DNA from: Norana najaformis
Taxonomy: Eukaryota > Annelida > Clitellata > Crassiclitellata > Hormogastridae
Assembly (NCBI GenBank): GCA_964023275.1
Contig: OZ029929.1
Coordinates: 10,180,856 to 10,244,855, forward strand
DNA: 64,000 nt
Direction of reading: 5' to 3'
Shown here: positions 1,876 to 64,000 of the stretch, piece after piece
How the letters are laid out: every line of letters starts with the position of its first letter
Position numbering within the stretch: position 1 is the first letter of the stretch
Made by a program: the position numbers and the translations under genes
Notes under the pieces: generated by a model
Told to the model about the DNA's origin: nothing
The model's input: the letters and a program-made list of their open reading frames with translations, nothing else
Databases searched by the model: none

Positions 1876-4800
1876 TTACCTGGAAATACGAGAAGATAGC
1901 TTCCTAATAAATTCTTCCCTGTCAAACTGTTTCCACATTGGATCATGATTAGTATAAAGACTTCTTTCGATAAAGTCGTAATTTCTTTGTTCTATAGGTA
2001 TACCCATTTTAGGGAAAAAAAATCTTTCGAGAGATTCGCAATTACTTTGTTCTATAGGTATATCTATTGCAGCGCCATCTGGACATAGGTCCAGATAAAT
2101 GTCATAGGCCGCATCATAGTCGAAGTCAATAAAGTCTGAAGATACATTCTTCACTTCCTCTATGTCGAATTGACAAATCAGCTTTTCTTCTACAAGCTGT
2201 CTGAATGAGGGCATATTGTAACAGGGAAAAACGACATGTTGACAAAACTCAATGAAGCAAAATATGATCCTCTCGACCCAGAAGGCGAGTTCTGTTCGCA
2301 TTAATTTGTCTTCGTTTCGGTCATAAACTTTCTTTTTATTACGGGCATTGAGAGCTTCAATGCAAAAGAGAAGACAAGTCTTCAGTTGATAAGTTGTTTT
2401 CGGTTTACCATGAAGTATCTTTTTACAAACTATGTACGCTGCTTTTATTAAAGGCGAACTTTCCTTGATGATTCGACTTTCCACCAGTCCAAATGAAATT
2501 CTTGCAAATGTTTCGGAAAAGGGAAAGTGACGAACCATTGAGTTGGAGAAATCAAAGAGTGGCCGATCAAAGACCAGTGTAAAACCGTCTGTTTTCGCAG
2601 CAGTACTAATGCCAACTGGCAGAGAGTCTCTTAGAGAACAATCTTCCACCTTAATACAAGCAACGACGTCAATTGATATCTCGGCAAAGAGAGAGCCACC
2701 CTCTCCGTCGTCAATGGGATGAAGCATTCTCAGTCGTACTGTCTTACATTTATCAGCTGGCCGATCATATTTCTTTTCGCCTATATCTTTTGTTATAATC
2801 CATTCGTGTTGATCCGTTTCAATACATTCGAGGAGGTAGTCGTCTTTCCAGAAATTAGAGTCGTGTAACACTTCTTTGAGAATATTCTGGAATCTAAAAT
2901 TGACTTCGCGAGTCAGCAGACACTGATCTGAGTTGAAGAAGCAGTCAAAGGCCTCGTCATTTCGACTCTTGCTATCGTCTTTTGACTTCCGCTTCAGTTG
3001 AATGTAGCCTTCAGGACCCAACGGATGTGGAAACACTTCGCAAATTTGGCTAAATTTAGTCAGCTTAAAGTTATAGTCGAAGTCTCCTGAAACGTCAGCT
3101 TTTGTTTCTTCGTCGGCGCTTCCGACTAAAATCGGCTGACACTCAAATCGCCAATCCTTTTCCTTTATACTATGAGTCAAACGGTCCATGAAGTGTTGTA
3201 GTGGTGCTTTTAATTGGCTTACGCGTCTGTTAAGGCGAATAAAATCGTTTTGGATCCATATATTCCAAATTGCTTCTTCTGACGATTTTAGACTCGAATA
3301 TGCTTGGGGGCAAATTTGAATCGTGGCAGACACTTTCCGCTTTGTTAGTTCTGTGACATGATTAGGCCAAATCTTGAGCTCTTTGGGCATTGAATTCGTG
3401 CTCATTCTGAATGACAATTCTACTTCGTTGTCTTTGTCGATTCCAATCTGGTCTCGTAGATCCTTAAGTTCTCTAGCAGTATATCCGTATTTATCTTTTG
3501 TATTTTCATTAGCTCCATGGCTGAGGAGCGAATTGTATTTATCATCCCATTCTGCGTAATGTAAAGGGGTTTTGCCATAAATGTCAGCTGCATTTACGCT
3601 ACAGCCTAATTCTAGTAGCACCTTTACTACCTCGTCATGTCCCTCCGAGACGGTGTACGATGGCATAAAAATGTAGTGAAGAGGAGTTCGTCCCTTTTCA
3701 TTTGTTACAGTAGCTAAATCCCTGAAATTCTCTTTTTCTAACTCGAATCTTTCACGCTCCTGTTCTGTTTTGCAAACAGGAGAGATGAGTCGATGAAAGG
3801 GACTTCGAGCTCGTAGGTTTGGAACAGCGCCGTGGTTCTGAAGTTCGTTGAAAGTTGCTGAATTCATTCGGCTGGAAGACTTCACTTCCAGATCAAGTGG
3901 CGTGTTTCCTCTGAAGTCCATCGCTTTCACATTTGTTTCGCCAATGCCCAGCAACAACTTAACTATTTCTTCTTTAGTTCGAGGGGTTTTCCTTTCGTCT
4001 TTAATGAATTGCTCAACAAAATCATTCCTCCATTTGCTAATCTGAAGAAAATTGTTGATGGCATATTTTTGCTTTGGAAGCCAATTACAGAATAAATGCA
4101 AATCTAACCAGTTTCTCTTGGGCTCATAGATAGCTGCATGCAAGGCAGTAAATCCGTAATAGTCGTGCAGATTCACGGACGCTTTATTATTCAGCAGCAA
4201 CTGCACTACTTCGACATGATGCCCTTCAGCCGCTTTAATCAAGGCAGTTGCTCCACGTCGATCTCTTGCGTTCATTTCGAGTTTCGTTCTCGATTTCTGC
4301 TCCCAGTCTAGCAAGATTTGAACGGCGTGACGACAACCCCTTTGAGAGGCAATGATCAAAGCCGTTTCACCATCAGAATTTCTCATGTTGAAGTCTGCGC
4401 CATTGTCTAACAGCAATTTCATTATATCGTCTATAGTTTGAGTTTGCATATGTCGGATTCTAGATCTTTTAATTAGATGATCGTGAAACCATTCCCCGCA
4501 TCTTTCGAGCACTTCATGAAGTGGAGTGTTTAATTGCTTGTCCTGGTAGTTTACATTGAATATGTGCGACTTCACAAGAACTTCTGCTATTTCTTTAATA
4601 TTTCTGCATCCATTAGTGTAATCCTTTTTCCGATAAATTTTTCTTGTCAAGTGACGAAAGCTGTCTCCAATATGCTTCTCTGAATATACACATTGGCCTA
4701 TTTCGAGCAATATCTCAACCATTTTCTTTTGGATGGAATCCACTGCCAGTTCGAGTGCTGTGTATTTATGTAATTCTTTCATTAACTCCAAAGGCGTGAT

Positions 4801-5775
4801 TGTTTCTGCCCAAATTATTTGAGCAGATACGCATTGACCATCGCGCTTCTCAAGTTCCACTGGTCTGATGTCGGTAGTTTCAACCAACTTACTGACATTC
4901 TCTTGAGGTTTGTACCTACCTTGTGTAAATTTTTCAAAATTCCTGCGGCTGTGCTTTAAAATAACTTTAACAACCTCTGTATGACCCTTTTCGATGGCAA
5001 CGTGCAATGGAGTCTTGTCTTCATCGAACAATATAAAATCCGAAACGCCGCGAAGCAATAACACATCTACTACTTCTGCATGGCCATTCTTAGCTGCAAG
5101 GTAAAAAGGTGTTTTCTCAGATTTTTTCATGACGTCGACAGTAGCATGGTTGTCAAGTAAAATTACAACACAGGAAGTGTGACCATTCTTGGCAGCTAAA
5201 TGAAGTGGAGTCATATTGTCGTTGTTGCACTCATTAACAGCCGTACAGTGACATATCAAGGCCTTTACAGTTTCTGTATGGCCGTTTTCTGATGCCAGAT
5301 GAAGCGGAGTCTGACCGTCTTCGTTTTTAAAGTCAACCCTTGAGTTACTATTTAACAAAAGATCCACAACATCTTTATGACCGACTGTAGCCGCATAGTG
5401 TAAAGGAGTGTTTTTCTTTGCGTCCACTGCATGGACATCAGATCCGTTCGTTTGCATCAGAAAACTCCTTACAGCCTCGACCTTACCATATTTAACTGCA
5501 AGGTGAAGCCAACTAGCATCTTGTTCTTCTTCTTTCTCTTCGTCCTTATCCTCGTCCTCCTCCTCATCATCATCCGCAGAGTGTAAATGAGGGCACATAT
5601 GTCCGTCCAATGCAAAGTAAACAGATCCTGGGTTTTGGTTCAGCAAATTCCTAACAAACTGATCTGCCATTTGAAGCGGACAAAGAACTTCTTCTTCTGC
5701 TTCCTCACTGAAATCCTGTACGTGCTCGTCTTCCTTGTCCTCCTCCGCATCCTGTGTTGTTGATAAATTGCTCAT
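1876..5775 (-). CDS. Ankyrin-repeat/cGAS-like nucleotidyltransferase fusion (gene 1)
   Basis: The 1299-residue protein is intron-free and fully open. The start is the ATG at 5775; the open frame extends ten codons further up but has no ATG there. An acidic D/E-rich segment (about residues 65-85) is followed by ankyrin repeats (about 88-290 and 335-770, with TPLHLA and DIYGKTPLHY type motifs). A Mab-21/cGAS nucleotidyltransferase follows (about 835-1250): GS at 885-886, D898-F-D900, and a third acid D1036 in ISIDVVAC. This matches the GS...hD...D metal-binding pattern of cGAS-like receptors, so catalysis looks possible. I see no vertebrate-type zinc-thumb H/C cluster. By family knowledge such enzymes sense nucleic acid or other cytosolic ligands and make cyclic dinucleotides for STING; the ligand, the product and the role of the ankyrin part are unknown here. 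The alternative is a non-catalytic Mab-21-like protein, but the intact triad argues against that. Confidence 0.85.
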   Translation of the reverse strand: MSNLSTTQDAEEDKEDEHVQDFSEEAEEEVLCPLQMADQFVRNLLNQNPGSVYFALDGHMCPHLHSADDDEEEDEDKDEEKEEEQDASWLHLAVKYGKVEAVRSFLMQTNGSDVHAVDAKKNTPLHYAATVGHKDVVDLLLNSNSRVDFKNEDGQTPLHLASENGHTETVKALICHCTAVNECNNDNMTPLHLAAKNGHTSCVVILLDNHATVDVMKKSEKTPFYLAAKNGHAEVVDVLLLRGVSDFILFDEDKTPLHVAIEKGHTEVVKVILKHSRRNFEKFTQGRYKPQENVSKLVETTDIRPVELEKRDGQCVSAQIIWAETITPLELMKELHKYTALELAVDSIQKKMVEILLEIGQCVYSEKHIGDSFRHLTRKIYRKKDYTNGCRNIKEIAEVLVKSHIFNVNYQDKQLNTPLHEVLERCGEWFHDHLIKRSRIRHMQTQTIDDIMKLLLDNGADFNMRNSDGETALIIASQRGCRHAVQILLDWEQKSRTKLEMNARDRRGATALIKAAEGHHVEVVQLLLNNKASVNLHDYYGFTALHAAIYEPKRNWLDLHLFCNWLPKQKYAINNFLQISKWRNDFVEQFIKDERKTPRTKEEIVKLLLGIGETNVKAMDFRGNTPLDLEVKSSSRMNSATFNELQNHGAVPNLRARSPFHRLISPVCKTEQERERFELEKENFRDLATVTNEKGRTPLHYIFMPSYTVSEGHDEVVKVLLELGCSVNAADIYGKTPLHYAEWDDKYNSLLSHGANENTKDKYGYTARELKDLRDQIGIDKDNEVELSFRMSTNSMPKELKIWPNHVTELTKRKVSATIQICPQAYSSLKSSEEAIWNIWIQNDFIRLNRRVSQLKAPLQHFMDRLTHSIKEKDWRFECQPILVGSADEETKADVSGDFDYNFKLTKFSQICEVFPHPLGPEGYIQLKRKSKDDSKSRNDEAFDCFFNSDQCLLTREVNFRFQNILKEVLHDSNFWKDDYLLECIETDQHEWIITKDIGEKKYDRPADKCKTVRLRMLHPIDDGEGGSLFAEISIDVVACIKVEDCSLRDSLPVGISTAAKTDGFTLVFDRPLFDFSNSMVRHFPFSETFARISFGLVESRIIKESSPLIKAAYIVCKKILHGKPKTTYQLKTCLLFCIEALNARNKKKVYDRNEDKLMRTELAFWVERIIFCFIEFCQHVVFPCYNMPSFRQLVEEKLICQFDIEEVKNVSSDFIDFDYDAAYDIYLDLCPDGAAIDIPIEQSNCESLERFFFPKMGIPIEQRNYDFIERSLYTNHDPMWKQFDREEFIRKLSSRISR

Positions 5776-6215
5776 TATTGCGTGATTTAGTTTGCCATTC
5801 AGCAAATATAGCCGATGATCACAGCAAAGCGTTCTTCTTTTTCATTTGCTGCAAAATAGAGTTCACAGTTATGATTTCACAGATAAATATATAAAAAATT
5901 ATAAAGTAAATATCGTAGCGAAGTGAATAGGTGCACTGCAATCTTTACATTGGTTTTTAAATCGATTGGAAGTTTGATTTACAGATTGTAATTTCGAACA
6001 CAGTGGTAAACGTCAAGGTATTAAGAACGGACTACTCCGCCACACACTCAACAATCTGTTTTGGATTTCAACTTTCACTAATTCAATGTTTTATTACTAC
6101 AGAACGGATTCAGTTACGAAATAGTGATTCAGATTCTTTGGAATAGCATCGACACCCCACTATGAAGAGGCTAAAATCACACGTAGTGTAAAGTAACCTT
6201 TCATTTATTAGTGTT
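5776..6215 (-). promoter_or_regulatory. Conserved upstream region of gene 1
   Basis: About 430 bp before the gene 1 start align closely to the regions before gene 2 (30546-30965) and gene 3 (50207-50615), including the motif CAGCAAATA next to the start and TTTGGAATAGCATCGACA-like sequence at the far end. It should hold the 5' UTR and promoter. I cannot place a TATA box or start site with confidence, and the similarity may simply reflect recent duplication. Confidence 0.45.
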
Positions 6216-11122: not shown

Positions 11123-11653
11123 TAGGGCTGCCAACCGTCCCGGATTCGACTGAACAGCCCCGAAATCGGCCTTGTGTCCGGATTGATCCCAAATTGTCCC
11201 GGAATTTGTTGTGAATATCCACTTCACCAAATGTTGTTCTTCTTTTTGCACACTGAACTCGGACAGCCGGCCGTAAATGAGTTTTACAGAGTGACCAAAG
11301 GATAGAGGGTAGTTAGGTTAGTAGACCCAATCAATGACATCTGCAAATTGCGTGCATCATGCGTGTATATACGAACTTCGCTCGTGCTAGGCCCTGAAGC
11401 CTGGTAGGTTACTGGAATTTGATAAACGTTTTGCCCTTGAAGTTGATTCAAATTTTTTATATATGCCAATTGTTACTTGATGATTTGAGTCAAATCATTT
11501 GTCTAAGTTTTAACAACTATTTGCAATAGATCCTGCATTAGGCTGACGCAACATCCGTTACATACAGTGATGTGGAGAGGGTAAATTGGTACTGGCATAT
11601 CGAGTGACTATGCGGGTGTCCAGGATTGGCAGAATCAAGAATTGGCAGCCCTA
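11123..11653. mobile_element. Candidate MITE with TAGGGCTGCCAA ends
   Basis: The 12-bp ends are perfect inverted repeats: TAGGGCTGCCAA at 11123 and TTGGCAGCCCTA ending at 11653. The 531-bp interior has no coding capacity I recognise. A TA target duplication is possible if the element proper starts at GGG. The left part recurs at about 37712-37835. Confidence 0.5.
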
Positions 11654-13200
11654 AATGTATCACACCATTTCTTCGACTAACACCAAGTTTAGTCTTGACT
11701 TCCCAACGCCTGAATCTTTTGTGGAACTCTTTGACAGAGAAGAACTACTGGAAAAGCTAGCTACTCCTCTTTCAAACTCTTGACGGTGCCACGTGATGCA
11801 CATGCTGTCTAAATTCCCTCTACTCTCAGACGGAAAATGAGCCAACAGATAACAATAAGAAGGGAGAGAATTTGAATCAAGAGGAAGAAGAGAAGGAGGA
11901 AGAAGAGGTGGAAGAACAGGAGAAAGAAAAACAGGAAAAATAAGAATCGGGCGATTAAGAATTTGAGGTATCTGTCGAATAGACGATGATAGTGATAATA
12001 ATGAAGCAGTTGATTTAAACTTCGTTAGTTATCAGTGGCCTGCTCACACCTGTGAACTATGTGCGACTCGGTTCGATGTTCATTAGAATGTTCTTAATTT
12101 GTCTTCTATACGAATGAAGTTGTTCGTTACATTATCAAAAGAATCTTTCTTAGCAATTTTGCCAATGAATTAATTTTTCCATGAATATGAAACTGTTCAT
12201 TCCTGCTTAACGTGTATACGCCTTTGATTTGTATGTCAGGTTGCCTAGCTCTAAGTGCAACATGAATAAAACAAAGGAAAGCAGATTAGGACTTGTCTGT
12301 TGATGGATTTAGGGGTGGATTGGCTGTCAAAACCTTGTGATCTGCTTGGCCATACATGCCCCGTCGTTCTGAAAGCTAAGTAGAGCTGGAATAGGGAGTC
12401 AGCAAGGGATCATGTCATTGGGTGAACAATGGGTAAGGAAAATAGTTATGTTCTCGGCTGCACGGAGCGTGAATGCCAGTGTTATTTATCTGTTGCCCAA
12501 AACTGCCTGGGATCGAATGTTACAGTGCTAGCTGGACCTTATAAGATGTGGATGGGCTGAGAGATAGGATTAGACTTCACTTTAGTTCTGCAAGACTAGC
12601 ATTTCGAGTTCCGCTTTATACCTTTCTTGCTGAATCTTACTGCATTTGGTGTCTTTTATGGGTTTTGTTATGGATCCGAAAACACCCGGAAGAGTAACTG
12701 TGTGCAGATCCGGAGAATAATTTTGTAGGAAAAGGGGAAGATTGGATAAGATGCTGGCAAAATAGGTAACCTACATAGGAGAGGAAGAAGACTGAAAAAC
12801 AGAGGAACTGAGAGAATAGATTGATCTGTAGGAAAGTTAAAAGGTCAGTCGAGTAGACTGAGGAAATGGCAGAAAAGAAGAAGAAGAGCAGTCTCTTAAG
12901 CTACCCTCGCATACTCCATACCCTTGGATACCAAGAGGTAGCCATAGGCAACAAATGTTAGCGACTTTTCTTTCTTAACTTCGGCATACGAGAGCTTATG
13001 GCCAGTCCTAGCTCTTGCTTCCTGATCTTCCCACTGACAGTGTGAGTGTAGTTGCTGTTTAACGACGCTCAGTAATAGCGAAGATGATTAGAGTCGCCAT
13101 CCCTGGAGTTGTGCACACACGCGTCTTAATAGACGAATGCTATACAAATGTTATGCTACAATAATTAGATATGTTTTACAAATATGCCTTGTAGAGCACA
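11654..13200. other. Intergenic, no gene recognised
   Basis: Contains a GA-rich tract (11840-11950) and AT-rich sequence. Near 12650-12720 a YGSE-like translation could be a very worn RTE LINE trace, but I cannot support it. Confidence 0.4.
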
Positions 13201-26431: not shown

Positions 26432-29400
26432 TCACTTTGCTAACGACATCAGATTGACATTCACTGCCTGCATGAAACAACGTGAAGATAGCTTTCTAAT
26501 TAATTCTTCCCTATCAAATTGTTCCCACAATGGGTCATGACTTCCACTGAAATATTCGGCAGGTTTTTGGCGTATTGGTATATCTATTGCAGTGTCATGT
26601 GGACATAGGTCCAGATAAATGTCATAGACCGGAGAGAACATCCAGGCTGAAAAGTTCTGCTTCTCCCATTCGAGAAACTCCACAGATCCATCGCTATTAA
26701 AGATATCTATCACTTCCTGTCTGAATGAGGGCATAAGGTAACAGGGATAAACGTCATGTCGAGAAAACTCCATGAAGCAAAACATGATCCTCTCGACCCA
26801 GAAGGCGAGTTCCGTTCGCGTAAATTTGTCTTCGTTTCGTGTTTGACTTTCTTTTCTGGCATTGAGAGCCTCCATACAAAAGAGAAGACAATTTTTCAAT
26901 TGATAAGAAGTTTGCGAATAAACGAAAAGTATCATTTTGCAAACTATGTACGCTGCTTTTATTAAAGGCGAACTTTCTTTGATGATTCGACTTTCCACTG
27001 GTGCAAATGAAATTCTAGCAAACGTCTCGGAAGAGAGAACTTGATCAATCTTTGGGTTGGAGCGATCAAAGCGTGGCCGATCAAAGACCAGTGTACAACC
27101 GTCTGGCTTCACAGCAGGACTAATACCAAATGGCAGTGTATCTCTTGGCCAACATTCTTCCAAGTTAACACAAGCAACGACGTCAATTGATATCTCGACA
27201 AAGAGAGAGCCACCCTCTCCGTCGTCAATGGGATGAATCATTCTTAGTTTCACCGTCTTACACAGACCAATGGAATGAAACACTGCATATGGGTCCATCT
27301 TTCTCATACCAGCTGCTGGCCGTTCATATTTCTTTTTGCCATGATCTGTTACAAACCTTTCGAACAGATCGTCTTCCTTCCAGTAATCAGGGTCGTGTAA
27401 GACTTCTTCGAGAATAAACTGGAATCTAAAATTGACTTCACGAGTCAGCAGGCACTGATCTGAGTTGAAGAAGCAGTCAAAGGCCTCGTCATTCCGACTC
27501 TTGGTATCGTCTTTTGACTTCCGTCTCAGTTGAAAGTAGCCTTCAGGACCCAACGGATGCGGAAACACTTCGCAAATTTGGCTAAATTTAATCAGTTTCA
27601 AGTTATAATCGAAGTCTCCTGAAACGGTAACTTTTGTTTCTTCGTCGGCGCTTCCGACTAAAATCGGCTGACACTCAAATCGCCAATCCTTTTCCTTTAC
27701 ACTATGAGCCAAACGGTCCATGAAGTGTTGTAGTGGTGCTTTAAGCTGGCTTACGCGTCTGTTAAGGCGAAGAAATCCGTTTCGGATCCATAACCTCCAA
27801 ATGAATTCTTCTGACGATTCTTGACCGGAAGACGATTGGGAGCAAATTTGAATCGTGGAAGCCACTTTTTCTTTCGTTAATTCTGTCACGTGATTAGTGT
27901 TAAACTTGTCGGGCATCTTATAAGTGCTCATTCCGAATGGCAATTCCATTTTGTTTTCTGCGTCGATTGTTGTCACCAAATCGTCTCGTATTTTCTTCCC
28001 ATCGCTGCGAGTATATCTGAGTCTCGAGTCGTCTCGTATTTTCTTCAGATCTCTAGGAGTATATCCGTATCTGTCTTTTGTATTTTCATTAGCACCACAG
28101 TTGAGGAGCAAATTGTACATCCGATCCTCTTCTGGGTAATGTAAAGGGGTTTTGCCGTAAATGTCAGTTTCGTTTACGCTACAGCCTAATTCTAGTAGCA
28201 ACCTTACCACTTCCCATTCGTTATCGACGCCGACGAGCGATTCAATAGCAAGGTGGTGAAGAGGAGTTCTTCCTTTGTTATCTTTTATAGTAGCTAAGTC
28301 CCTGAAATTCTCTTTTTTAAAGTCGAATCTTTCATGCTCCCGTTCTGTTTTGCAAACAGGAGAGATGACTTGTCGATGCAAGGGACTTTGAATAGCCCCG
28401 CGTTTCTCAAGTTCGTTGAAAGTTGCCGAATTCATTCGGTTGGAAGACTTCACAGCCAAATCAAGTGGCGTGTTTCCTCTGAAGTCTATGGCATTCAGGT
28501 TTTTTTTGTCAATGTCTAACAACCATTTAACTATTTTTTCTTTATATACAGTAGTTTTCCTTTCGTGTATAAACTCTTGTGATATATGGTCATCAGTCCA
28601 TTGCCTAGTCTGAAGTAAATTGTTGAGGAAGTATTTTCCCTTTTGAAGCCCCTTGCAGAAGAACTGCATATCTAACCAGTTACTATTTGGCTCATAGATA
28701 GCTGCATGCAAGGCAGCATATCCATAAAAGTCTTGTATATTAACGGATGCTTTATTGTTCAGCAGCAGCTTCACTACTTCGACATGATGTCTTTCAGCCG
28801 CTTTAATCAAAGCAGTTGCTCCATATTGATCTCTTGCGTCCAGATCGAGTTTCATTCTCGATTTCTGCTCCCAGTCGAGCAAGATTTGAACGACATGAGA
28901 ACAACCCCTTTCGTAGGCAATGATCAAAGCCGTTTCGCCACGTGAATTTTTCAAGTTGAAGTCAGCGCCTTTCTCTAACAGCAATTTTATTATATCGTCT
29001 CTAGGTTGACTCAGCAAAAGTTCCTTTTTTGACTTTTTAGTAAAGTAATCGTGATACCTTTTCCTGCATTTGTCCAGCACTTTGTGAAGTACAGTGTTTA
29101 ATTTTCTATTTTGATAGTTTACATTAAATCTTTCCGACTTCACAAGAACTTCTGCAATTTCTGCAATATTTTTCCATTTGGTGGTGTCAAATTGAACACG
29201 ATAGAATGACTTTGTCAACGAATGAAAGATCTTTCCAAGATGGTCCTGAGAGTATATACTTTGGTTTGTTTCGAGCAATATCTTGACCATTTCCGGATGG
29301 AAGTCACGCACTGCTAGTTCGAGTGCAGTGTATCCAAACAAACCTCGCATTAGCTCTAGAGGCGTGTTTGTTTCTGCCCAAACTATTCTAGCAGATACGC

Positions 29401-29986: not shown

Positions 29987-30000
29987 AGTGTCGTTGTTAC

Positions 30001-41465: not shown

Positions 41466-41471
41466 AAACGA

Positions 41472-41556
41472 TGGCATAACACGGTAATGAAGAGGAGTTC
41501 TTCCTTTGTCATCTTTTATATTGGCTAACTGCCTAAAATTCTCTTTTTCAGATCCT
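41472..41556 (-). pseudogene. Copied scrap of gene 3 ankyrin coding
   Basis: About 80 bp almost identical to 44120-44200 inside gene 3 (the KDDKGRTPLHYRV-encoding stretch), lying about 0.9 kb beyond the gene 3 stop. No ankyrin sequence adjoins it on either side. Confidence 0.65.
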
Positions 41557-42414
41557 GCTCTTTGTATTCTCTCTGTCTTTTTCTTTCTCCCTTTCTTTCA
41601 TTCTCGCTGCTTCTCTTTCTCCAGATTCTGCGCAGCTCGGTTGCCACTAAGGGTTGCGTGGTGATGTCTGATTAGACCAAGTGAACCCATATATGAACAC
41701 ATATATACAACACACATATGAACACATATGTACAACATACATATGACACATATGTGCAGCACATACACAACACGTTTACAGATGCATAGGAATAGTTTAA
41801 CATGTAAAATATGGGACATAGGAATATACAATATGGGGAACTTCAATAAGAGCCATACAAGAATACAGCTATAAGCAAGGAAGTAGTCTTTATTTGCATC
41901 TGTCATGCGTACATGTATAGAACAATTACATACATTTAAAATAGCTATCAAACGAGCAAATATAATAGATGGGAATGCACAACTAAATATAACTAAACAT
42001 TCATTCACAAAACTACTTCTAAGGAGTTTAGATTTAAGAGGAGACAACGTTAATAGTGTGAAACGGCTTGCAATAAAAATGGAAATCCAAACTGCGCCTC
42101 TTTAGAATTTATCGAATGACTAAGATTTCTGCATTTACGTATTTCAAATTTACCATCACTTAGGCTGGGACATATAGGGAGCCCCTCTAATTTGTTTCAT
42201 TTGAAGTTTCGCTACACATATTTATGATTACATTTAAAATAACAATTCGGTAGGCCATGATTAGACCCGACTGTTCATAAAATTTTGCCAAAAGTTGCAA
42301 AAACTTCACAAAAGCCAAGATAACCGCGAACAGCACTCCAACAGTTAAAAAGAAAAACACATATCCAAATTCGTTACTTTGCTACTGACATACATTATCA
42401 TATTAGAATTACAT
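41557..42414. other. 3' flank of gene 3
   Basis: Aligns to the gene 2 flank (25680-26430). Contains a TATATGAACACA-type short repeat near 41690-41770. No gene. Confidence 0.6.
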
Positions 42415-43267
42415 TCAATACCTGGAACCACGTGAAGATAGCTTCCTAATAAATTCTTCTCTATCAAATTGTTCCCACATTGGGTCATGATTCGAAGTAA
42501 GATCTCCTTCGACATAATTGTCCTTCATTTGGAATATAGGTATATCTACTGCAGCGTCATCTGGACATACGTCCAGATAAATGTCGTCGGCTGCAGAGTA
42601 GTCGAAGGGAATCTTGAAATCTGAAGAAACATTCACCTCATCCGATTCGATGAACTGCAACGATCCATGTTTATCATGCACTTGCATCGCTCGCTGTCTG
42701 AATGAGGGCATAAGATAACAGGGATAAACGTCATGTCGACAAAACTCAACGAAGCAAAACATGATCCTCTCGACCCAGAAGGCGAGTTCTGTTCGCGTAA
42801 TTTTGTCTTCGTTTCGTGATTCACTTCCATTTCTGGCATTGAGAGCCTCCATGCAAAAGAGAAGACAATTTTTCAATTGATAAGTAGTTTTCGGTTGATC
42901 ATAAAGTATCATTTTGGAAACTATGTATGCTGATTTTATTAAAGACGAACTTTCTTTGATGATTCGACTTTCCACTGATGCAAAAGAAATTCTAGCAAAT
43001 GTTTCGGAAAACAGAAAGAGATCAACCCTTGGGTTCGACCGATCAAAACGTGGCCGATCAAAGACCAGAGTACAACCGTCTGCTTTCAAATCAGGACTAA
43101 TGCCAACTGGCAGAGGGTCTCTTGGCCAGCAATATTCCACGTGAACACAAGCAACGACGTCAATTGATATGTTGACAAAGAGAAATCCTCCCTCTTTGTC
43201 AGCAATGGGATGAAGCATTCTTAGTCGCATTGTCTTACACAGACGAGCTGGATGTTCATATTTTTTT
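42415..43267 (-). CDS. C-terminal nucleotidyltransferase part of gene 3
   Basis: Continues the homology of the body ORF after a one-base frameshift at the T7 run 43261-43267. It carries the third catalytic Asp (NISIDVVAC), the Mab-21 C-lobe and the conserved EEFIRKLSSR end. The open frame extends up to 43290, but the part before the run is out of register with the paralogues. If the frameshift is a sequencing error, this is simply the end of the 43221-46799 protein. Confidence 0.7.
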
Positions 43268-46200
43268 CGTCTTGAACTGTTGCAATCCATTCGAACAGAT
43301 CGTCGTCTTTCCAGAAATTGGGGTCGTTTAAGACTTCTTCGAGAATATCCTGGAATCTAGAATTGATTTCATGAGTCAGCAGACACTGATCTGAGTTGAA
43401 GAAACAGTCAAAGGCCTCGTCATTCCGACCCTTGGCATCGTCTTTTGACTTCCTTCTCAGTTGAAAGTAGCCTTCATGACCCGACGGATGTGGAAGCACT
43501 TCGCACAGCTGGCTAAATTTAGTCAGTTTAAGGTTATAGTCGAAGTCTGCTGAAACGATAATTTTAGTTTCTTCGTCGGCGCTTCCGACTAAAATTGGCT
43601 GACACTCAAATCGCCAATCCTTTCCCTTTATTCTATGAGCCAAACGGTCCATGAAGTGTTTTAGTGGTGTTTTAAGCTGGCTTACGCTTCTGTTAAGGCG
43701 AATAAATTCGTTTTGGATCCATATTTTCCAAATTGCTTCTTCTGACGACTCTTGACCGGAAGATGATTGGGAGCAAACTGTAATCGTGGAAGCAACTTTT
43801 TGCTTCGTTAATTCTCTCACATGAATGTAGCGAAGCTTCTTGAGCGTGCTACATGTGCTCATTGTGATTGGAAATTTTACAGCGTTGTTTTCGTCGATTC
43901 TCATCTGGTCTCGTAGTTGCTTAAGATCTCTAGGAGTATTTCCATATATGTCTTTTATATTTTCATTAGCTCCATAGTTGAGGAGCATATTATAATGATC
44001 ATTCTCTTCTGCGTAATGTAAAGGGGTTTTGCCGTAAATGTCAGTTGCAATTACGTTACAGCCCAGTTCCAAAAACACACTTACTACGTCGTCATATCCA
44101 CTGTAGATGGCGGACGATGGCTTAACACGGTAATGAAGAGGAGTTCTTCCTTTGTCATCTTTTACATTGGCTAACTGCCTAAAATTCACTTTTTCAGAGA
44201 TAATTCTATATAATATTAAGTCGGCTCTTTTTTGTTCCAATTCTTTTTTGTCTGTCTTCACATCTTCAATGGCATAATATGAAGCCGAACAGATGATGAT
44301 TCGATGCAAGGGACTTCGACTTCTCCGGTCAATTCTAACCGTATGGACTGGCCCTTCGTGTTTTGATTCGCGTAGACCTTGAATAGCGCCGCGATTCTCA
44401 AATTCGTTGAAAGTTGCCGTATTATTCCGCTTGGAGGACTTCACTGCCAAATCAATTATCGTGTTTCCTCTGAAGTCCAGGGCATTCACATTTGTTTTGT
44501 CAATACCTAACAACAATTTAAGCATTTCTTCTTCAAATCGAATTGTTTTCTTATCGTGTACAAGGTTCGTCACCAATCTATCAATTGATTTGTATGGATT
44601 CACAGACTGCAATTTCCAGGTAGCCTTACCCCATTTGCGAATCTCAAAGGGTGCTACTAGAAATTCGTTGATATTCAATTTTCGCCTATGAAGCCGAATG
44701 CGGCAGAAATGCAAATCATACCAGTTCCTATTTAGGTGATAGTTAGCTTCATGCGAGGCAGTTGATCCGTAGTAGTCATGAAAATTCACCGACGCTTTAT
44801 TGTTCAGCAGCAGCTTCACTACTTCGAGATGCTGCCCTTCAGCCGCTTTAATCAAAGCAGTTCCTTCACGTAGAGCTCTTGCGTCCAAATCGAGTTTCAT
44901 TCTCGATTTGTGCTGCCAGTCGAGCAAGAATTGAACAGCGTGACGACAACCCCTTTGGGGTGCAATGATCGAAGCTGTTTCGCCATCAGAAGTTTTTGTG
45001 TTTATGTCTGCACGTTTCTCTAACAACAATTTTGTTATATCATCTATAGGTTCAATGTGAAAAAGTCTCTTTCTCGACTTTTTAATGCAGTGATCGTGAA
45101 ACCTTTTTCCGCATATTTCCAGCACTTCGTGAAGTGGACTGTTTAGTACCTCACCTAGATAATTTACGTTGAAACTGTCAGACTTCACAAGAACTTCTAC
45201 AATTTTTTTAATATTTTTCCATTTATTACCGTAAGTTTTACCAAAAGTAACAGGCTGTACGATTGCCTCTTTTAAGCAACGAAAGCTGTCTCCAACAAGC
45301 TTATCTGAATATACATATTGTCCTCTATTGAGCAACATCTCAACCATTTTTGGTTGAATGGAACGCGCTGAAAGTTCGAGAGCAGTACATCCATCTGATT
45401 GTTTCATTATCTCCAGAGGCGTGTTTGCCTTTGCCCAAACTCTTCCAGCAGATACGCATCGACCATCGCACTTCCTAAGTTTGAATGGCTCGATGTCCTT
45501 CGTTTCAACCAAGTACCTGACATTCTCTTGAGGTTTGTACCTGTTTTCTGTGAATTTTTCAGAGGTCATGCAGCGGTGCTTTAAAATAGCGTTAACAACC
45601 TCTGTATGACCTTTTTCGACGGCAACGTGTAATAAGGTCTCTCCATAATTGATCGTTCCGAAATCCGAAATACGGCGATGCAATAACTCATTTACAACTT
45701 GTGCGTAGCCATGCTCAGCAGCAAGGTAAGAACGTGTCATCCAATCTTGTTTCATGACGGTAGCATGGTTGTCCAGTAAAATAACAACACTGGAAGTGTG
45801 ACCATTTAAGACGGCGAAATCAAGTGGAGTGGCTTTTAATTTGTTGCACTCATTAACAGCCGCACCGTGACGTATCAAGGCCTCTGGAACATTTTTATGA
45901 CCCTTATTAGACGCAAGATGAGGTGGAATCAATTTGACGTTGTTGCAGTCATTAATAGCCGCACTCCAACATATCAAGTCGTCTACAGTTTCTTTATGGC
46001 CGTGTTTAGACGTCACATGAAGCGGCGTCTGATCGAATCCGTTTCTAAAGCCAACCCTCGAATTTTTACTTAGTAAAAGATCGACAACATCTTGGTGGCC
46101 GACTGAAGCCGCATATGTTAAAGGAATGATTTCCTGTGCGTCCACTGCATTGACATCAGATCCGTTAGATTGCATCAGCAAACGCCTGTCAACCTCAACA

Positions 46201-46799
46201 AGAGCATCTTTAGCTGCAAGGCGAAGCGGACTAGGACCACGTTCTTCTTCCTCATTGACATCCTGTACATCTTCCTCCTTCTCGTTCTCCTCCTCGTCCT
46301 CCTCCTCGTTCTCATCCTCTTCCTCTTCCTCCTCTTCTCCCTGCTCCTCCTCTTCTTCTTCGTCCTCAGTCTGCTTGTCCCCATCGACCTTATCTTCGTT
46401 CTCCTCGTCGTCGTCGTCGTCGTCGTTCTCTTCATACTGTAGATGAGTGTACTTCTTTACGTCGACTGCATTGATATCAGATTCGACAGATTCAATCAGC
46501 AAACTCCTTTCAACCTCGACAAGACCATCTTTAGCTCCAAGGCGAAGCGGACAAGGATCTCGTTCTTCTTCCTCATTGACATCCTGTACGTCCTCCTCCT
46601 TCTTGTTCTCCTCATCGATCTCTTCCGCTTCCGCTCCACGCTCCTCCTCCTCCTCCTCCTCTTCGTCCTCATCTTCCTCGTCCCCATCGACCTCATCTTC
46701 GTTCTCCTCCTCATCCTCCTCATCCTCCGCATACTGTAAATGAATGTATTTCTTTACGTCGACTGCATTGATATCAGATTCGACTGATTCCATCACCAA
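43221..46799 (-). CDS. Ankyrin-repeat/cGAS-like fusion, main body (gene 3)
   Basis: The 1192 codons start at an ATG within the last unit of the acidic array. An acidic D/E-rich region (about residues 25-185, two units) precedes ankyrin repeats (about 205-400 and 435-960). The nucleotidyltransferase has GS at 1072-1073 and D1085-F-D1087. The third Asp is lost from this frame because of the single-base shift at 43261-43267, after which the last 13 residues are unrelated. Compared with genes 1 and 2 there are more lineage-specific residues near 790-830. Alone this frame would lack a complete active site; with one base restored at the run it would match the paralogues to the end. Confidence 0.75.
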   Translation of the reverse strand: MVMESVESDINAVDVKKYIHLQYAEDEEDEEENEDEVDGDEEDEDEEEEEEEERGAEAEEIDEENKKEEDVQDVNEEEERDPCPLRLGAKDGLVEVERSLLIESVESDINAVDVKKYTHLQYEENDDDDDDEENEDKVDGDKQTEDEEEEEEQGEEEEEEEDENEEEDEEENEKEEDVQDVNEEEERGPSPLRLAAKDALVEVDRRLLMQSNGSDVNAVDAQEIIPLTYAASVGHQDVVDLLLSKNSRVGFRNGFDQTPLHVTSKHGHKETVDDLICWSAAINDCNNVKLIPPHLASNKGHKNVPEALIRHGAAVNECNKLKATPLDFAVLNGHTSSVVILLDNHATVMKQDWMTRSYLAAEHGYAQVVNELLHRRISDFGTINYGETLLHVAVEKGHTEVVNAILKHRCMTSEKFTENRYKPQENVRYLVETKDIEPFKLRKCDGRCVSAGRVWAKANTPLEIMKQSDGCTALELSARSIQPKMVEMLLNRGQYVYSDKLVGDSFRCLKEAIVQPVTFGKTYGNKWKNIKKIVEVLVKSDSFNVNYLGEVLNSPLHEVLEICGKRFHDHCIKKSRKRLFHIEPIDDITKLLLEKRADINTKTSDGETASIIAPQRGCRHAVQFLLDWQHKSRMKLDLDARALREGTALIKAAEGQHLEVVKLLLNNKASVNFHDYYGSTASHEANYHLNRNWYDLHFCRIRLHRRKLNINEFLVAPFEIRKWGKATWKLQSVNPYKSIDRLVTNLVHDKKTIRFEEEMLKLLLGIDKTNVNALDFRGNTIIDLAVKSSKRNNTATFNEFENRGAIQGLRESKHEGPVHTVRIDRRSRSPLHRIIICSASYYAIEDVKTDKKELEQKRADLILYRIISEKVNFRQLANVKDDKGRTPLHYRVKPSSAIYSGYDDVVSVFLELGCNVIATDIYGKTPLHYAEENDHYNMLLNYGANENIKDIYGNTPRDLKQLRDQMRIDENNAVKFPITMSTCSTLKKLRYIHVRELTKQKVASTITVCSQSSSGQESSEEAIWKIWIQNEFIRLNRSVSQLKTPLKHFMDRLAHRIKGKDWRFECQPILVGSADEETKIIVSADFDYNLKLTKFSQLCEVLPHPSGHEGYFQLRRKSKDDAKGRNDEAFDCFFNSDQCLLTHEINSRFQDILEEVLNDPNFWKDDDLFEWIATVQDEKNMNIQLVCVRQCD

Positions 46800-49790
46800 A
46801 CTCCTTTCAACCTCGACAAGACCATCTTTAGCTCCAAGGCGAAGCGGACAAGGATCTCGTTCTTCTTCCTCATTGACATCCTGTACGTCCTCCTCCTTCT
46901 TGTTCTCTTCTCATCGATCTCTTCCGCTTCCGCTCCACGCTCCTCCTCCTCTTCGTCCTCATCTTCCTCGTCCCCATCGACCTCATCTTCGTTCTCCTCC
47001 TCATCCTCCTCATCCTCCGCATACTGTAAATGAATGTATTTCTTTACGTCGACTGCATTGATATCAGATTCGACTGATTCCATCACCAAACTCCTTTCAA
47101 CCTCGACAAGACCATCTTTAGCTCCAAGGCGAAGCGGACAAGGATCTCGTTCTTCTTCCTCATTGACATCCTGTACGTCCTCCTCCTTCTCGTTCTCCTC
47201 ATCGACCTCTTCCGCTTCCGCTCCACGCTCCTCCTCCTCCTCCTCCTCTTCGTCCTCATCTTCCTCGTCCCCATCGACCTCATCTTCGTTCTCCTCCTCA
47301 TCCTCCTCATCCTCCGCATACTGTAAATGAATGTATTTCTTTACGTCGACTGCATTGATATCAGATTCGACTGATTCCATCACCAAACTCCTTTCAACCT
47401 CGACAAGACCATCTTTAGCTCCAAGGCGAATCGGACAAGGATCTCGTTCTTCTTCCTCATTGACATCCTGTACGTCCTCCTCCTTCTTGTTCTCTTCTCA
47501 TCGATCTCTTCCGCTTCCGCTCCACGCTCCTCCTCCTCCTCTTCGTCCTCATCTTCCTCGTCCCCATCGACCTCATCTTCGTTCTCCTCCTCATCCTCCT
47601 CATCCTCCGCATACTGTAAATGAATGTATTTCTTTACGTCGACTGCATTGATATCAGATTCGACTGATTCCATCACCAAACTCCTTTCAACCTCGACAAG
47701 ACCATCTTTAGCTCCAAGGCGAATCGGACAAGGATCTCGTTCTTCTTCCTCATTGACATCCTGTACGTCCTCCTCCTTCTCGTTCTCCTCATCGACCTCT
47801 TCCGCTTCCGCTCCACGCTCCTCCTCCTCCTCCTCCTCTTCGTCCTCATCTTCCTCGTCCCCATCGACCTCATCTTCGTTCTCCTCCTCATCCTCCTCAT
47901 CCTCCGCATACTGTAAATGAATGTATTTCTTTACGTCGACTGCATTGATATCAGATTCGACTGATTCCATCACCAAACTCCTTTCAACCTCGACAAGACC
48001 ATCTTTAGCTCCAAGGCGAATCGGACAAGGATCTCGTTCTTCTTCCTCATTGACATCCTGTACGTCCTCCTCCTTCTTGTTCTCTTCTCATCGATCTCTT
48101 CCGCTTCCGCTCCACGCTCCTCCTCCTCCTCTTCGTCCTCATCTTCCTCGTCCCCATCGACCTCATCTTCGTTCTCCTCCTCATCCTCCTCATCCTCCGC
48201 ATACTGTAAATGAATGTATTTCTTTACGTCGACTGCATTGATATCAGATTCGACTGATTCCATCACCAAACTCCTTTCAACCTCGACAAGACCATCTTTA
48301 GCTCCAAGGCGAAGCGGACAAGGATCTCGTTCTTCTTCCTCATTGACATCCTGTACGTCCTCCTCCTTCTCGTTCTCCTCATCGACCTCTTCCGCTTCCG
48401 CTCCACGCTCCTCCTCCTCCTCCTCCTCTTCGTCCTCATCTTCCTCGTCCCCATCGACCTCATCTTCGTTCTCCTCCTCATCCTCCTCATCCTCCGCATA
48501 CTGTAAATGAATGTATTTCTTTACGTCGACTGCATTGATATCAGATTCGACTGATTCCATCACCAAACTCCTTTCAACCTCGACAAGACCATCTTTAGCT
48601 CCAAGGCGAATCGGACAAGGATCTCGTTCTTCTTCCTCATTGACATCCTGTACGTCCTCCTCCTTCTTGTTCTCTTCTCATCGATCTCTTCCGCTTCCGC
48701 TCCACGCTCCTCCTCCTCCTCTTCGTCCTCATCTTCCTCGTCCCCATCGACCTCATCTTCGTTCTCCTCCTCATCCTCCTCATCCTCCGCATACTGTAAA
48801 TGAATGTATTTCTTTACGTCGACTGCATTGATATCAGATTCGACTGATTCCATCACCAAACTCCTTTCAACCTCGACAAGACCATCTTTAGCTCCAAGGC
48901 GAATCGGACAAGGATCTCGTTCTTCTTCCTCATTGACATCCTGTACGTCCTCCTCCTTCTCGTTCTCCTCATCGACCTCTTCCGCTTCCGCTCCACGCTC
49001 CTCCTCCTCCTCCTCCTCTTCGTCCTCATCTTCCTCGTCCCCATCGACCTCATCTTCGTTCTCCTCCTCATCCTCCTCATCCTCCGCATACTGTAAATGA
49101 ATGTATTTCTTTACGTCGACTGCATTGATATCAGATTCGACTGATTCCATCACCAAACTCCTTTCAACCTCGACAAGACCATCTTTAGCTCCAAGGCGAA
49201 TCGGACAAGGATCTCGTTCTTCTTCCTCATTGACATCCTGTACGTCCTCCTCCTTCTTGTTCTCTTCTCATCGATCTCTTCCGCTTCCGCTCCACGCTCC
49301 TCCTCCTCCTCTTCGTCCTCATCTTCCTCGTCCCCATCGACCTCATCTTCGTTCTCCTCCTCATCCTCCTCATCCTCCGCATACTGTAAATGAATGTATT
49401 TCTTTACGTCGACTGCATTGATATCAGATTCGACTGATTCCATCACCAAACTCCTTTCAACCTCGACAAGACCATCTTTAGCTCCAAGGCGAAGCGGACA
49501 AGGATCTCGTTCTTCTTCCTCATTGACATCCTGTACGTCCTCCTCCTTCTCGTTCTCCTCATCGACCTCTTCCGCTTCCGCTCCACGCTCCTCCTCCTCC
49601 TCCTCCTCTTCGTCCTCATCTTCCTCGTCCCCATCGACCTCATCTTCGTTCTCCTCCTCATCCTCCTCATCCTCCGCATACTGTAAATGAATGTATTTCT
49701 TTACGTCGACTGCATTGATATCAGATTCGACTGATTCCATCAGCAAACTCCTTTCAACCTCGACAAGACCACGTTCAGCTGCAATGTAAA
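46461..49790 (-). repeat. 590-bp higher-order tandem array inside gene 3
   Basis: Eleven intervals between GTCGACTGCATTGATATCAG landmarks alternate 297 bp (type A) and 293 bp (type B, 290 in the first). They begin at 46461, 46758, 47048, 47345, 47638, 47935, 48228, 48525, 48818, 49115, 49408 and 49705. Each unit encodes an acidic stretch plus an ankyrin-like LGAKDGLVEVERSL segment. Type B units differ by a two-base insertion (GTTCTCTTCTCATCG for GTTCTCCTCATCG) and fewer CTC triplets, so 590 is not a multiple of three. Every A+B pair breaks the frame, and the array cannot be translated through. Confidence 0.9.
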
Positions 49791-50206
49791 GATGACTAGG
49801 AACTTGTTTTACTTGTTCCTCATTGACATCCTGATCGTCGTCCTCCTCGTTCTCCTCCTTGTCCTCGTCCTCGTCCTCGTCATCCTTGTTGTCGTCTTCC
49901 TCGTCGTCCTCCTCCTCGTCGTCGTCCTCATCCTGCTCGTCCTCGTCCTCCTCCTCCACCTCTTCATTGATGATTACCTCGCGATTATCATACATTTCAG
50001 TTGGTTCTTCGCCGTTAGATGTAGTGCATGTCTGTTCGCTAGTTTCGGATCCATCTGATTCAACACACAGTTTCGGCATCAGATTTACTGTACTTTGCAT
50101 CAGATTAGCGATGCATTTCAACAATTGAGTATGCTTTGTCGACATCAGCTCCGTTTTATGTTTCTCCAGAATCAGCCGCAGTTTGTGTCGTTGATAATTT
50201 GCTCAT
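49150..50206 (-). pseudogene. Broken 5' part of gene 3
   Basis: The ATG equivalent to genes 1 and 2 is at 50206 (MSKLSTTQ), but a TAA follows at 50156-50158 where gene 2 has Gln, and further stops occur in the same register. A frame from ATG 50145 regains homology (VESDGSETSE, EMYDNREV), runs through a D/E-rich segment and two array units, then ends at 49150 after the first type B frameshift. Confidence 0.75.
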
Positions 50207-60715: not shown

Positions 60716-61354
60716 TCACCCTTAACCCTTCATAAAATTTGTTGAATTTGTAATGATAATTTACATTGCCACACCTCATTTTGCTTTCTTACTTTATGCG
60801 TATAGAACAGTAGCAAGAATACAACTAGTAAACAAAAGAACAAAATACATGAATTTTTTTCATAACCATGATATCTGTAGGCCTAAATATAATAACAAAT
60901 TTGCATAGCGCTGCTCTTCAAGAAAAACTCCTCAGAGGTGGTCCTAAATTGACAAAGCCACAGTCAAACAGAAAGGGTTTTAAACACTTACGGAAACGAG
61001 GCAAAGGAGTCCATGTCGGAGGTTGCTAGGCAACCTAATATTACAAAAAGATGGACAAACCACAGCGGAGCTTATACGCGGCACTGAAGCATGGACAACC
61101 AGGTCATTTATCACAGCAGAGCGAAAGATTCTGCGGCAGGAATGGATGAGACTGAGATACATACAAATGTAGCTCACTGAGATAAGCTGTAGCACTGCTT
61201 GAAAGATAACATCTATATGTCATTTATATAAGAATTTCAGAGAGTGTTATAATGCTTAATGTGTTTTGTGTTTTTGAAGTTGTAGCGAAGACAGAATAAC
61301 GAGCATTAGAGCTTGGTGAAGTAACTTGGGTTAAAACCCAGAATCGGAGCTCAA
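60716..61354 (+). other. Upstream region of gene 4
   Basis: No gene. Unlike genes 1-3 it shares no upstream block with the paralogues. A degraded LINE 3' hairpin lies near 60900-60950. A TATA-box-like TTTATATAAG is at 61223-61232, about 125 bp before the ATG, and is the best core-promoter candidate in the window. Confidence 0.4.
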
Positions 61355-63451
61355 ATGATGGATTCACATACAAATATTCGAATTACCCGTCCGCATAATA
61401 GTCTAAATACCCTTCTGCACCATACATATAGAGTTACACATACAGATTCAGATACTCTAAGTACTCCTCTGCACGTTGCGGCTCGAGATGGTTGCCTAGA
61501 CGAAGTGACGACGTTGCTACAGACCAAAACGGACGACGTTAATGCACAGGACAGAGATGGCAGGACTCCACTACATCTCGCCGTTGAAAATCGTCACACA
61601 CGTATTGCTGAGATGTTGCTGAAACATGGGGTGAATACTCTCGCCAAAGACCTATATGAACATACACCGTTTTATTTGGCAGCAACAAAGGGGTTTGCAG
61701 AAATTCTTCAGATGATGTTACATTTCGCTGAAAATGCTGATAATGATCAAGACCTTGGCAGTTACCAGCCTACAGAGCCTTCTATGACAATTCGAACTCC
61801 TAAACGACATGACCTTAATCTGAATGTCGAGTCTGAAATCCCAGTTATGCAGCAAGATTCAAGAGCGTCAGAACGTGCATTCCGGTGTGCAACGCCAGGA
61901 ACTCAGAACTGCCAGATGAGACCTGTAGATGTACAGTATGATGTAGTTTCATACGAAGATGATGGCATTCTGTCGATCAGGGTGACTGTTTGCAAGAAAG
62001 ATCAACTGTCCGACATGCTAAACCGTGAGTGTTATAATGCTCTTCTAGGTGCCGTAAGCGATAGTAACATCGAATCAGTTAAGACACTGGTAGAAAGCGA
62101 TCTAATCAATGTGATGAACGGTGATGGGTTCACTGCACTACATGATGCAGTGCGGACTATCGATATCATGGAAATATTCTTAAACTCTGGTAAGTTCAAC
62201 GTGAATGCCCTCTCTTATAATTCTGAAACATTTCTGTTTCGTGCTATCAACCACAAATATAATCAAGATTTTTCAGGAAAAGTCCTTACCGAAATTGAGA
62301 AAAAGGATCGAAATGTACTGTTGTTACTTTTGAAACACAAAGCAGACATAAACGTGAGGAACTCAAAAGATGAAACTGCTTTGATAAAGGCAGCAGAGTG
62401 TGACTGCGATCACATCGTTCGGCTTTTTATAGACTGGTCAAAAGAAACTGGCATAAATGTAGATCTCAATGCCAGAGATTTTCTTGGTGAGACTGCATTA
62501 ATAAAAGCAGCCAAACAGCGAACCCCACAAACAGTGAAAATACTTTTGGATGCTGGCGCTTCAGTCACTTTAGCAGATTATCGTGGATACACAGCGTTGC
62601 ATGCCGTCTGCTATGAAGAACTTAATCACCGCAGTTGGATCAATTTACGTCACATATGGAAAGAACTATGCGAAGAACACCTGGGATATTACTTTCAAAT
62701 AGCTAAACTAACAGAGAAGCTGTACCAATCTTTTTATAAAAAATCGAATCCCTGTTTAAGCTCTCTATTGAAAGAACTTCACGTTGAAAACCTTCCAGAT
62801 CGCGATCTAGCAGATGTGATAGGAAAACTTCCTATCACGAATGTTCCACAAATAATTGCATACTGTTCAACAGAAAGCGAAGAGGAATTAAATAAACACA
62901 GAACTGTAGAACTCCTTCTTAAAAACGAAGATATTGACGTAATTGCTGCTGACTTCAGAGGTAATACGCCGCTTGACCTGGCCCTTAAGTCAGGAGTGAA
63001 AACAAAACCTTGTACGATAGAAGCACTCAAACAACAAGGAGCCACTTGTAGCACATTTTCACACACACAACAGAATGCAAACTTCAAAATACGAGAAGGT
63101 GTAATAGACAAAAAAGGAGGATCAACTTTCCATCTTCTAGCCATTGGTAACAGATATAGGCGATATGAGAAATACGAAAACAGAGAATTAAAACAAATTT
63201 TTGTTGAGGTACATATACGCCCACACTGGTCAGATAAGTCAATAATATACGGAGAAGATATACGATTGTACGAAGTGCTTGACAGCATTCACTGTTTCTC
63301 CCAACTCCAAAGAAATGCGTGTCATCAAATCCTCCAGATCAAAGACAACCACGGTAGAACCGCCTTGCATGTAGCTGTAATGTCAATGTCTAACTCCTTG
63401 AACAGGTACCTGACAAAGACATTTGGTTCATGGTATATATTGCGGCTCTAG
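61355..63451 (+). CDS. Ankyrin-repeat part of a divergent ankyrin-cGLR gene (gene 4)
   Basis: The 698 codons run from ATG 61355. Ankyrin repeats cover about residues 36-130 (STPLHVAARDG, GRTPLHLAVENR) and 245-580 (DETALIKAAE, DYRGYTALHAVC, DFRGNTPLDLAL), with an intervening region at 130-245 in the same place as in genes 1-3. It lacks the acidic N-terminal segment of the others. The frame ends at 63451 after a shift near 63425-63435; homology to the paralogues continues in the next frame. It is the most diverged copy and on the opposite strand. Confidence 0.8.
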   Translation: MMDSHTNIRITRPHNSLNTLLHHTYRVTHTDSDTLSTPLHVAARDGCLDEVTTLLQTKTDDVNAQDRDGRTPLHLAVENRHTRIAEMLLKHGVNTLAKDLYEHTPFYLAATKGFAEILQMMLHFAENADNDQDLGSYQPTEPSMTIRTPKRHDLNLNVESEIPVMQQDSRASERAFRCATPGTQNCQMRPVDVQYDVVSYEDDGILSIRVTVCKKDQLSDMLNRECYNALLGAVSDSNIESVKTLVESDLINVMNGDGFTALHDAVRTIDIMEIFLNSGKFNVNALSYNSETFLFRAINHKYNQDFSGKVLTEIEKKDRNVLLLLLKHKADINVRNSKDETALIKAAECDCDHIVRLFIDWSKETGINVDLNARDFLGETALIKAAKQRTPQTVKILLDAGASVTLADYRGYTALHAVCYEELNHRSWINLRHIWKELCEEHLGYYFQIAKLTEKLYQSFYKKSNPCLSSLLKELHVENLPDRDLADVIGKLPITNVPQIIAYCSTESEEELNKHRTVELLLKNEDIDVIAADFRGNTPLDLALKSGVKTKPCTIEALKQQGATCSTFSHTQQNANFKIREGVIDKKGGSTFHLLAIGNRYRRYEKYENRELKQIFVEVHIRPHWSDKSIIYGEDIRLYEVLDSIHCFSQLQRNACHQILQIKDNHGRTALHVAVMSMSNSLNRYLTKTFGSWYILRL

Positions 63452-64000
63452 TACTAAGCATGAGCAGTGACGTCAACGCCACTGATAAATACGGAAGAAC
63501 GCCGCTACACTACTCTTCGCATCAATTAGTCACAAAACTTTTAATTGAAAATGGCGGAAACAAAGACATTAGAGATATAGATGGAAAAATTGCAAATGAA
63601 ATGGTACAAATGAGAATGGAGGAAGGTATGACTTTTGAAAATGCTCAGCGTGGAATCACTGATGCTGTACGAGAGATTGAGTATTCAAATACAATATTTT
63701 TCATAGATCGGATCTTGCTGAATTGTTACATACTGATTCATCTTTGCTAGAATCGATGAATTTTCAATACAAAATTTTTCCACAATCTTCAGACAAAAAA
63801 TCAGAATACGCAAAAGAAATCGTTAGCACCATATGGAATGAAGAAAAATATGCAGATCGCAATCCAATGTCAAATCTTCTTCAAACAGAAGTCAATAACT
63901 TTGTCAACCGAATGATGGATGGAATTTAAAAATATGATCCAAGGTTCGAATGTCGACCAATATTTGTTGGAAGCGCCTTCGAAGGAACGAAAATTGATTT
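63430..64000 (+). pseudogene. Continuation of gene 4 with breaks, into the nucleotidyltransferase
   Basis: The second frame (63430-63700) carries SSDVNATDKYGRTPLHY. After another one-base shift at the T run 63697-63701, the third frame carries IVSTIWNEEKYADRNP. A TAA at 63927-63929 stands where genes 1-3 have Lys, and the frame then continues with RFECRPIFVGSAFEGTKID, the cGLR GS motif, to the window end. The DFD pair and third Asp lie outside. Either a pseudogene or an assembly with several errors. Confidence 0.7.

Follow-up and report, generated by a model that had tools for sequence, protein, structure and literature searches.

Tandemly amplified genes for candidate ankyrin-fused cGAS-like receptors in the annelid Norana najaformis

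A window of 64,000 nucleotides of the genome of the annelid Norana najaformis (C17:10180856-10244855; the source genome comprises 608 Mb in 17 contigs) contains several copies and relics of one type of gene, in which an N-terminal ankyrin part precedes a C-terminal domain of predicted cGAS-type nucleotidyltransferase fold (Table 1). Gene A was the sole copy in the window open from its N- to its C-terminus. A first-pass annotation had spoken of four large paralogues and several fragments; several copies and relics are indeed present, but B, C and D are broken, and the count was too high for intact copies in the window and too low for the genome, with its approximately 50 loci. The start of gene A is likely Met23, in a stretch that could also be recognised upstream of gene B. 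Twelve ankyrin repeats scoring above 3 bits fell into three blocks (residues ~112-300, 487-591 and 713-784) separated by unrecognised stretches; the match to PF12796 had an E-value of 8.8e-95, and multiple repeats exceeded the Pfam cut-off. The ankyrin array of 500-800 residues described at first pass is therefore borne out as repeats spread over several hundred residues, but not as a continuous run. The Mab-21 profile PF03281 matched residues 914-1126 with 25.4 bits, against a curated Pfam cut-off of 24.1.

Gene B showed the domain order and motifs of gene A with all three active-site acids, and its PF03281 score was 20.6, below 24.1. Gene C is interrupted by a frameshift near 43263-43266, within the nucleotidyltransferase. 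Its two pieces gave no PF03281 match at E up to 0.001 in Pfam, although GS, DFD and the third Asp were nonetheless readable. The domain assignments of the first pass held over both profile cut-offs for gene A, whereas the Mab-21 profile fell short in B and gave no such match in C. In the main matches, identity to gene A was ~60% for gene B and 54-64% for gene C. The flanks are duplicated too; the longer stretches shared around A, B and C are ~69-85% identical. In the acidic repeat array of gene C, every 590 bp the next open frame lies in another frame; it looks as though the repeat and a frameshift within it had been amplified together (46340-49847). In L027, another locus of the family, a repeat of 285 bp (2.0 copies) has a length divisible by three. 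Gene D has decayed to a relic that carries several frameshifts and stops, one stop lying directly before the GS motif; its ankyrin part was 86% identical to that of its open relative L031.

Table 1. Features of the ankyrin-nucleotidyltransferase family in the window (positions are those of the window)
Feature	Position	Strand	Description
Gene A	1876..5841	(-)	open frame, 1321 codons; ankyrin array and predicted cGAS-type nucleotidyltransferase
Gene A ankyrin part	3427..5508	(-)	residues ~112-805; 12 repeats in three blocks
Gene A predicted cGAS-fold domain	2080..3279	(-)	residues ~855-1254, as delimited by alignment of the model with cGAS chains
Gene A D920-F-D922, first catalytic pair	3076..3084	(-)	11 residues past GS (907/908)
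Gene A third acid D1058 (ISIDVV)	2668..2670	(-)	from sequence comparison
Gene B	26432..30052	(-)	open frame, 1206 codons; ankyrin part and nucleotidyltransferase; N-terminus lost
Gene B decayed N-terminal part	30053..30611	(-)	frameshift and in-frame stops; still recognisable by comparison with gene A
Gene B 99-bp tandem repeat	29774..30037	(-)	2.7 copies, 84% match; one unit is one ankyrin
Gene C part 1	43266..46910	(-)	ankyrin part and start of nucleotidyltransferase (GS, DFD)
Gene C part 2	42415..43263	(-)	remaining nucleotidyltransferase (third Asp), in a different frame
Gene C acidic N-terminal repeat array	46340..49847	(-)	period 297, 11.9 copies
Gene D	61325..64000	(+)	inverted, decayed; second subgroup, nearest L031; continues past the window end
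Ankyrin-part relic	41466..41564	(-)	from sequence comparison
Relic of nucleotidyltransferase C-terminal end	11634..11979	(+)	C17:10192489-10192834; genome search with the L031 domain

The genome was searched with the domains of gene A (61 of 61 candidates scored) and of L031 (84 of 257 scored). Neighbouring pieces were merged by hand from the search tables, and all locus counts are lower bounds. The family comprised at least about 50 loci. The gene A subgroup accounted for 28 of them, all on contig C17, with 25 substantial copies within 9.67-10.28 Mb and three fragments; the remainder were 11 loci on C11, eight others on C17 (gene D among them), one on C5 and two relics. An open frame of at least 900 amino acids with a match to the gene A domain free of stops was found at 32 loci, of which 19 belong to the gene A subgroup (B included, the frameshifted C left out), seven lie on C11 and six elsewhere on C17. 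The copy-number turnover suspected at first pass is supported. Haplotig duplication as the main source of the copies was rejected, since the longer C17 matches were only ~63-70% identical to gene A.

Sequences were read for 22 of the 32 open loci and for the 703-codon L039, giving 23 open frames with A and B included, and across these the order of ankyrin part and nucleotidyltransferase recurred. Ankyrin repeats exceeded the Pfam cut-off in seven of eight proteins scanned from the same genome, the eighth (P0017) being of a different family. PF03281 gave a mixed picture among the relatives, over its cut-off in L026, L028, L030, L031, L035 and P0011 and below it in B, L002 and L045. Tandem units of 99 bp, one ankyrin each, were present in L026 (9.4 copies), L006 (3.1), L008 (2.1), L027 (2.1) and L045 (1.8), and absent from the other nine of the 14 loci scanned. 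Public proteins, too, carry ankyrin repeats ahead of such a domain: P0010 (54% identity, with no PF03281 match in Pfam), P0011 (32%), and also P0018, P0019, P0021 and P0022. The layout is not due to chance, because the same order recurs in 23 open frames of this genome and in proteins from other sources. A further protein, P0013, begins as an ankyrin-cGAS-like receptor and ends in unrelated repetitive sequence; it is likely a chimeric contig. Scans of viral and prokaryote contigs by short conserved patterns confirmed no relative, which leaves the idea that the family belongs to viruses or prokaryotes unsupported.

The GS...DFD...D triad reported at first pass was recovered in gene A, in gene B and, divided between its two pieces, in gene C. 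Its core, GS followed after about 11 residues by D/E-x-D and by a further D, is present in every one of the 23 open frames, and a pattern search recovered it in all ten outside homologs examined. As a single sequence the gene A domain had no match in the PDB at E up to 1, matches being obtained with a profile alone. The profile aligned the catalytic residues with those of cGAS, the third D within a weak second stretch, and the match to cGAS was weak over the C-terminal half of the domain. The predicted structure resembled known cGAS-like receptor (cGLR) enzymes, and VIA-align superposed model residues 29-427 on residues 162-521 of cGAS. The Mab-21/cGAS fold that had been proposed for the C-terminal domain of gene A is thus supported by the structural model.

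The nucleotidyltransferase domains were acidic: 22 of the 23 had isoelectric points (pI) of 4.9-6.2 and carried a negative net charge, while the shortened L039 stood at pI 7.2 and net charge 0. Outside homologs (n = 10) had domain pI values of 5.2-7.2. In the work of Li et al. (2023, PMC9980059), as far as it is drawn on here, cGLRs that sense double-stranded DNA or RNA have a pI above 8.5, and non-nucleic-acid ligands were proposed for acidic cGLRs. The ankyrin family falls outside the range above 8.5 of nucleic-acid-sensing cGLRs and cGAS, in a comparison of pI values computed with different programs in the two studies. Separately, L044 (C10:447000-456999) holds two adjacent open frames of cGLR-like type that contain GS and the acid motifs and have pI values of 8.5 and 8.6; this pair is closer to the usual nucleic-acid-sensing cGLR than the ankyrin family is.

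Selection was assessed with a purpose-written mixture test, with one tree per segment, columns near gaps dropped and 100 null simulations; the segments were chosen by hand, and the simulation counts are uncorrected for multiple testing. Among ten C17 copies, the number of simulations in 100 that reached the observed value was 0 for segment 100-330, 0 for 330-450, 1 for 450-560, 0 for 560-700, 1 for 700-830, 0 for 880-1000, 10 for 1000-1130 and 10 for 1130-1322. When gene B was left out, the counts were 31 (180-330), 0 (330-450), 1 (450-560), 0 (560-700), 5 (700-830), 0 (880-1000), 2 (1000-1130) and 5 (1130-1322). Seven C11 copies gave 5 (15-150), 8 (150-300), 0 (300-460), 40 (460-600), 4 (600-740) and 57 (740-920). 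The signal was strongest ahead of the enzyme domain in both clusters; C11 segment 300-460 covers the repeats recognised at ~391-439 in L033 plus an unrecognised stretch. Pairwise Ka/Ks (the ratio of nonsynonymous to synonymous change) was 0.48-0.79 among A, B and C, and segment means among the ten copies were 0.56-0.98.

As to a possible downstream partner, STING is present in the same genome as the array: STING_LBD gave 12 matches over the cut-off which, when paired by location, amount to about six genes, of which five lie on C3 and the other on C17. Two of these exons were compared with the PDB and matched STING chains. Mab-21 matches over the cut-off numbered at least 150 genome-wide (150 of 247 candidates were scored, all of them over it), most lying outside the array. 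A separate and very large Mab-21 set is found mainly on C1, C2 and C8. Four copies outside the ankyrin family were read (L013-L016; two on C1, one on C2, one on C3, none on C8). All of them have GS, D-x-D and one more Asp; in L015 this residue aligns with the VD of the third-acid strand of the cGLR structure 8gjy (E 6.1e-23). A judgement by eye that the third acid had been lost in the other large Mab-21 sets was thereupon withdrawn. The other Mab-21 set, a different family as judged from P0017, which has no ankyrin match, may consist of enzymes too, and could be a cGLR radiation that far exceeds the ankyrin family in size.

Two further features of the window may concern mobile DNA. An open frame with a hAT-type transposase and a Spin-doc zinc finger lies at 53868-55772 (+) according to Pfam, and two overlapping open frames without Pfam match (P0009, P0005) at 56755-58493 (+) are perhaps a single mobile element.

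We consider it somewhat better than an even chance that these genes encode tandemly amplified ankyrin-fused cGLRs, whose N-terminal part senses a ligand and whose enzyme supplies STING with a cyclic dinucleotide. The sensing, the enzymatic activity, its product and the immune role that we infer would fit together as follows. The N-terminal ankyrin part would bind a ligand that comes from a pathogen or from the host and is probably something other than a nucleic acid. Binding would free, assemble or organise the C-terminal nucleotidyltransferase, which would then produce a cyclic dinucleotide for one of the about six STINGs. Duplication, loss, changes in the 99-bp repeats and diversifying selection would tune the sensor. 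Three observations make the N-terminal part the probable sensor: acidic enzyme domains, selection signals and 99-bp ankyrin units that vary in number. They lend support to the sensing role that the first pass considered, beside a scaffold role, for the ankyrin array, except that the strongest selection falls mostly between the recognised ankyrin blocks.

Several observations weigh against this explanation. The published cGLR motif, h[QT]GS [X8-20] [DE]h[DE]h [X50-90] h[DE]h (PMC9980059, in the part consulted), does not literally fit the family: GS is preceded by T in L034 and by V, I or M in the other 22 of the 23 frames, and the last spacing, computed for 18 of the 23, was 122-151 residues against 50-90. 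The domain model has weak stretches (mean pLDDT, a per-residue confidence score, 57.3; pTM, its counterpart for the overall fold, 0.61), with low pLDDT in its last part. Selection also touched the C17 enzyme, in segment 880-1000 with and without gene B, and to a lesser degree in 1000-1130. Among the C17 segments the signal peaked in 330-450 and 560-700, and most of each falls in the gaps that separate the ankyrin blocks recognised in gene A. Gene conversion among tandem copies can inflate a test of this kind, the sole guard here being the per-segment trees. Our estimates for this explanation and for the bolder extension given below were lowered, and those for two alternatives raised a little, because the copies read from other Mab-21 sets have GS, D-x-D and a further Asp as well and because of the position of the strongest selection.

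Ankyrin arrays are commonly scaffolds, and it is conceivable, though unlikely, that the nucleotidyltransferase-fold domain signals through protein contacts without any cyclic dinucleotide, the array serving as scaffold. Such a role would suit the mostly unkept pre-GS residue and spacing. It has a precedent in the shrimp Mab21 proteins, which in the part of PMC12928593 used here showed neither DNA nor RNA binding, gave no cyclic GMP-AMP (cGAMP) and acted on IKK-epsilon. The retention of GS and three acids in every open frame read and every outside homolog examined, however, is what would be expected of a constrained enzyme. That the nucleotidyltransferase itself senses DNA or RNA as cGAS does, with the ankyrin array only localising it or recruiting partners, appears improbable to us: the fold and catalytic core are cGAS-like, and nucleic-acid sensing is the best known mode of cGLR activation (PMC9980059, as cited above), but the acidity of 22 of 23 domains is the opposite of what the published nucleic-acid sensors show. 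Least probable is a non-immune family under tandem duplication and relaxed constraint instead of an arms race, since, for all the many broken copies, the compatible Ka/Ks values and the developmental genes known among Mab-21 relatives (PMC10732462, in the part seen), the catalytic residues are invariant while other segments in two clusters hold a class with nonsynonymous above synonymous change.

Contrary to what the first pass had implied, the ankyrin-cGLR fusion is not itself new, since ankyrin-repeat cGLRs, including those of Stylophora pistillata, are described in the sections of Li et al. (2023, PMC9980059) used here, along with genomes rich in cGLRs (S. pistillata has 42 and C. virginica more than 20). 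Those proteins resemble the present ones in uniting a cGLR core and ankyrin repeats, and their genomes likewise hold numerous cGLRs and several STINGs; unlike them, as there described, the present ones stand in tandem, tens of copies strong, and their ankyrin parts run to hundreds of residues. Oyster Cv-cGLR1 (8gjw) and mammalian cGAS share the fold, GS and three acids with the gene A family, which differs in its acidic domain, its longer insert ahead of the third acid and its long ankyrin array. Pd-cGLR and other acidic, auto-active cGLRs have the same low pI and a proposed non-nucleic-acid ligand, but an ankyrin fusion is not part of their description in the cited portion of PMC9980059. Shrimp LvMab21-1/2/3 are Mab-21 domain proteins with an immune role, for which the consulted text of PMC12928593 mentions no ankyrin repeats and reports no cGAMP detected. 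A large tandem ankyrin-cGLR array was not found described in the literature searched, which lay outside subscription papers, most preprints and supplements. What is apparently new is the tandem array of tens of ankyrin-cGLRs with its acidic and selection signature.

More tentatively, and as a rather doubtful extension, the array might be an animal counterpart of the plant NLR repertoire, in which variable ankyrin parts recognise pathogen or guarded host proteins and signal by cyclic dinucleotide to STING. If this were true, recognition of proteins, and not of DNA or RNA, would drive cGAS-type signalling. The ligands of acidic cGLRs, which are probably not nucleic acids, are a published open question (PMC9980059, in the part drawn on). 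The tens of natural variants in the array share an enzyme but differ in their N-terminal parts, and the genome holds several STINGs, so that which part senses, and what it senses, could be tested by domain swaps.

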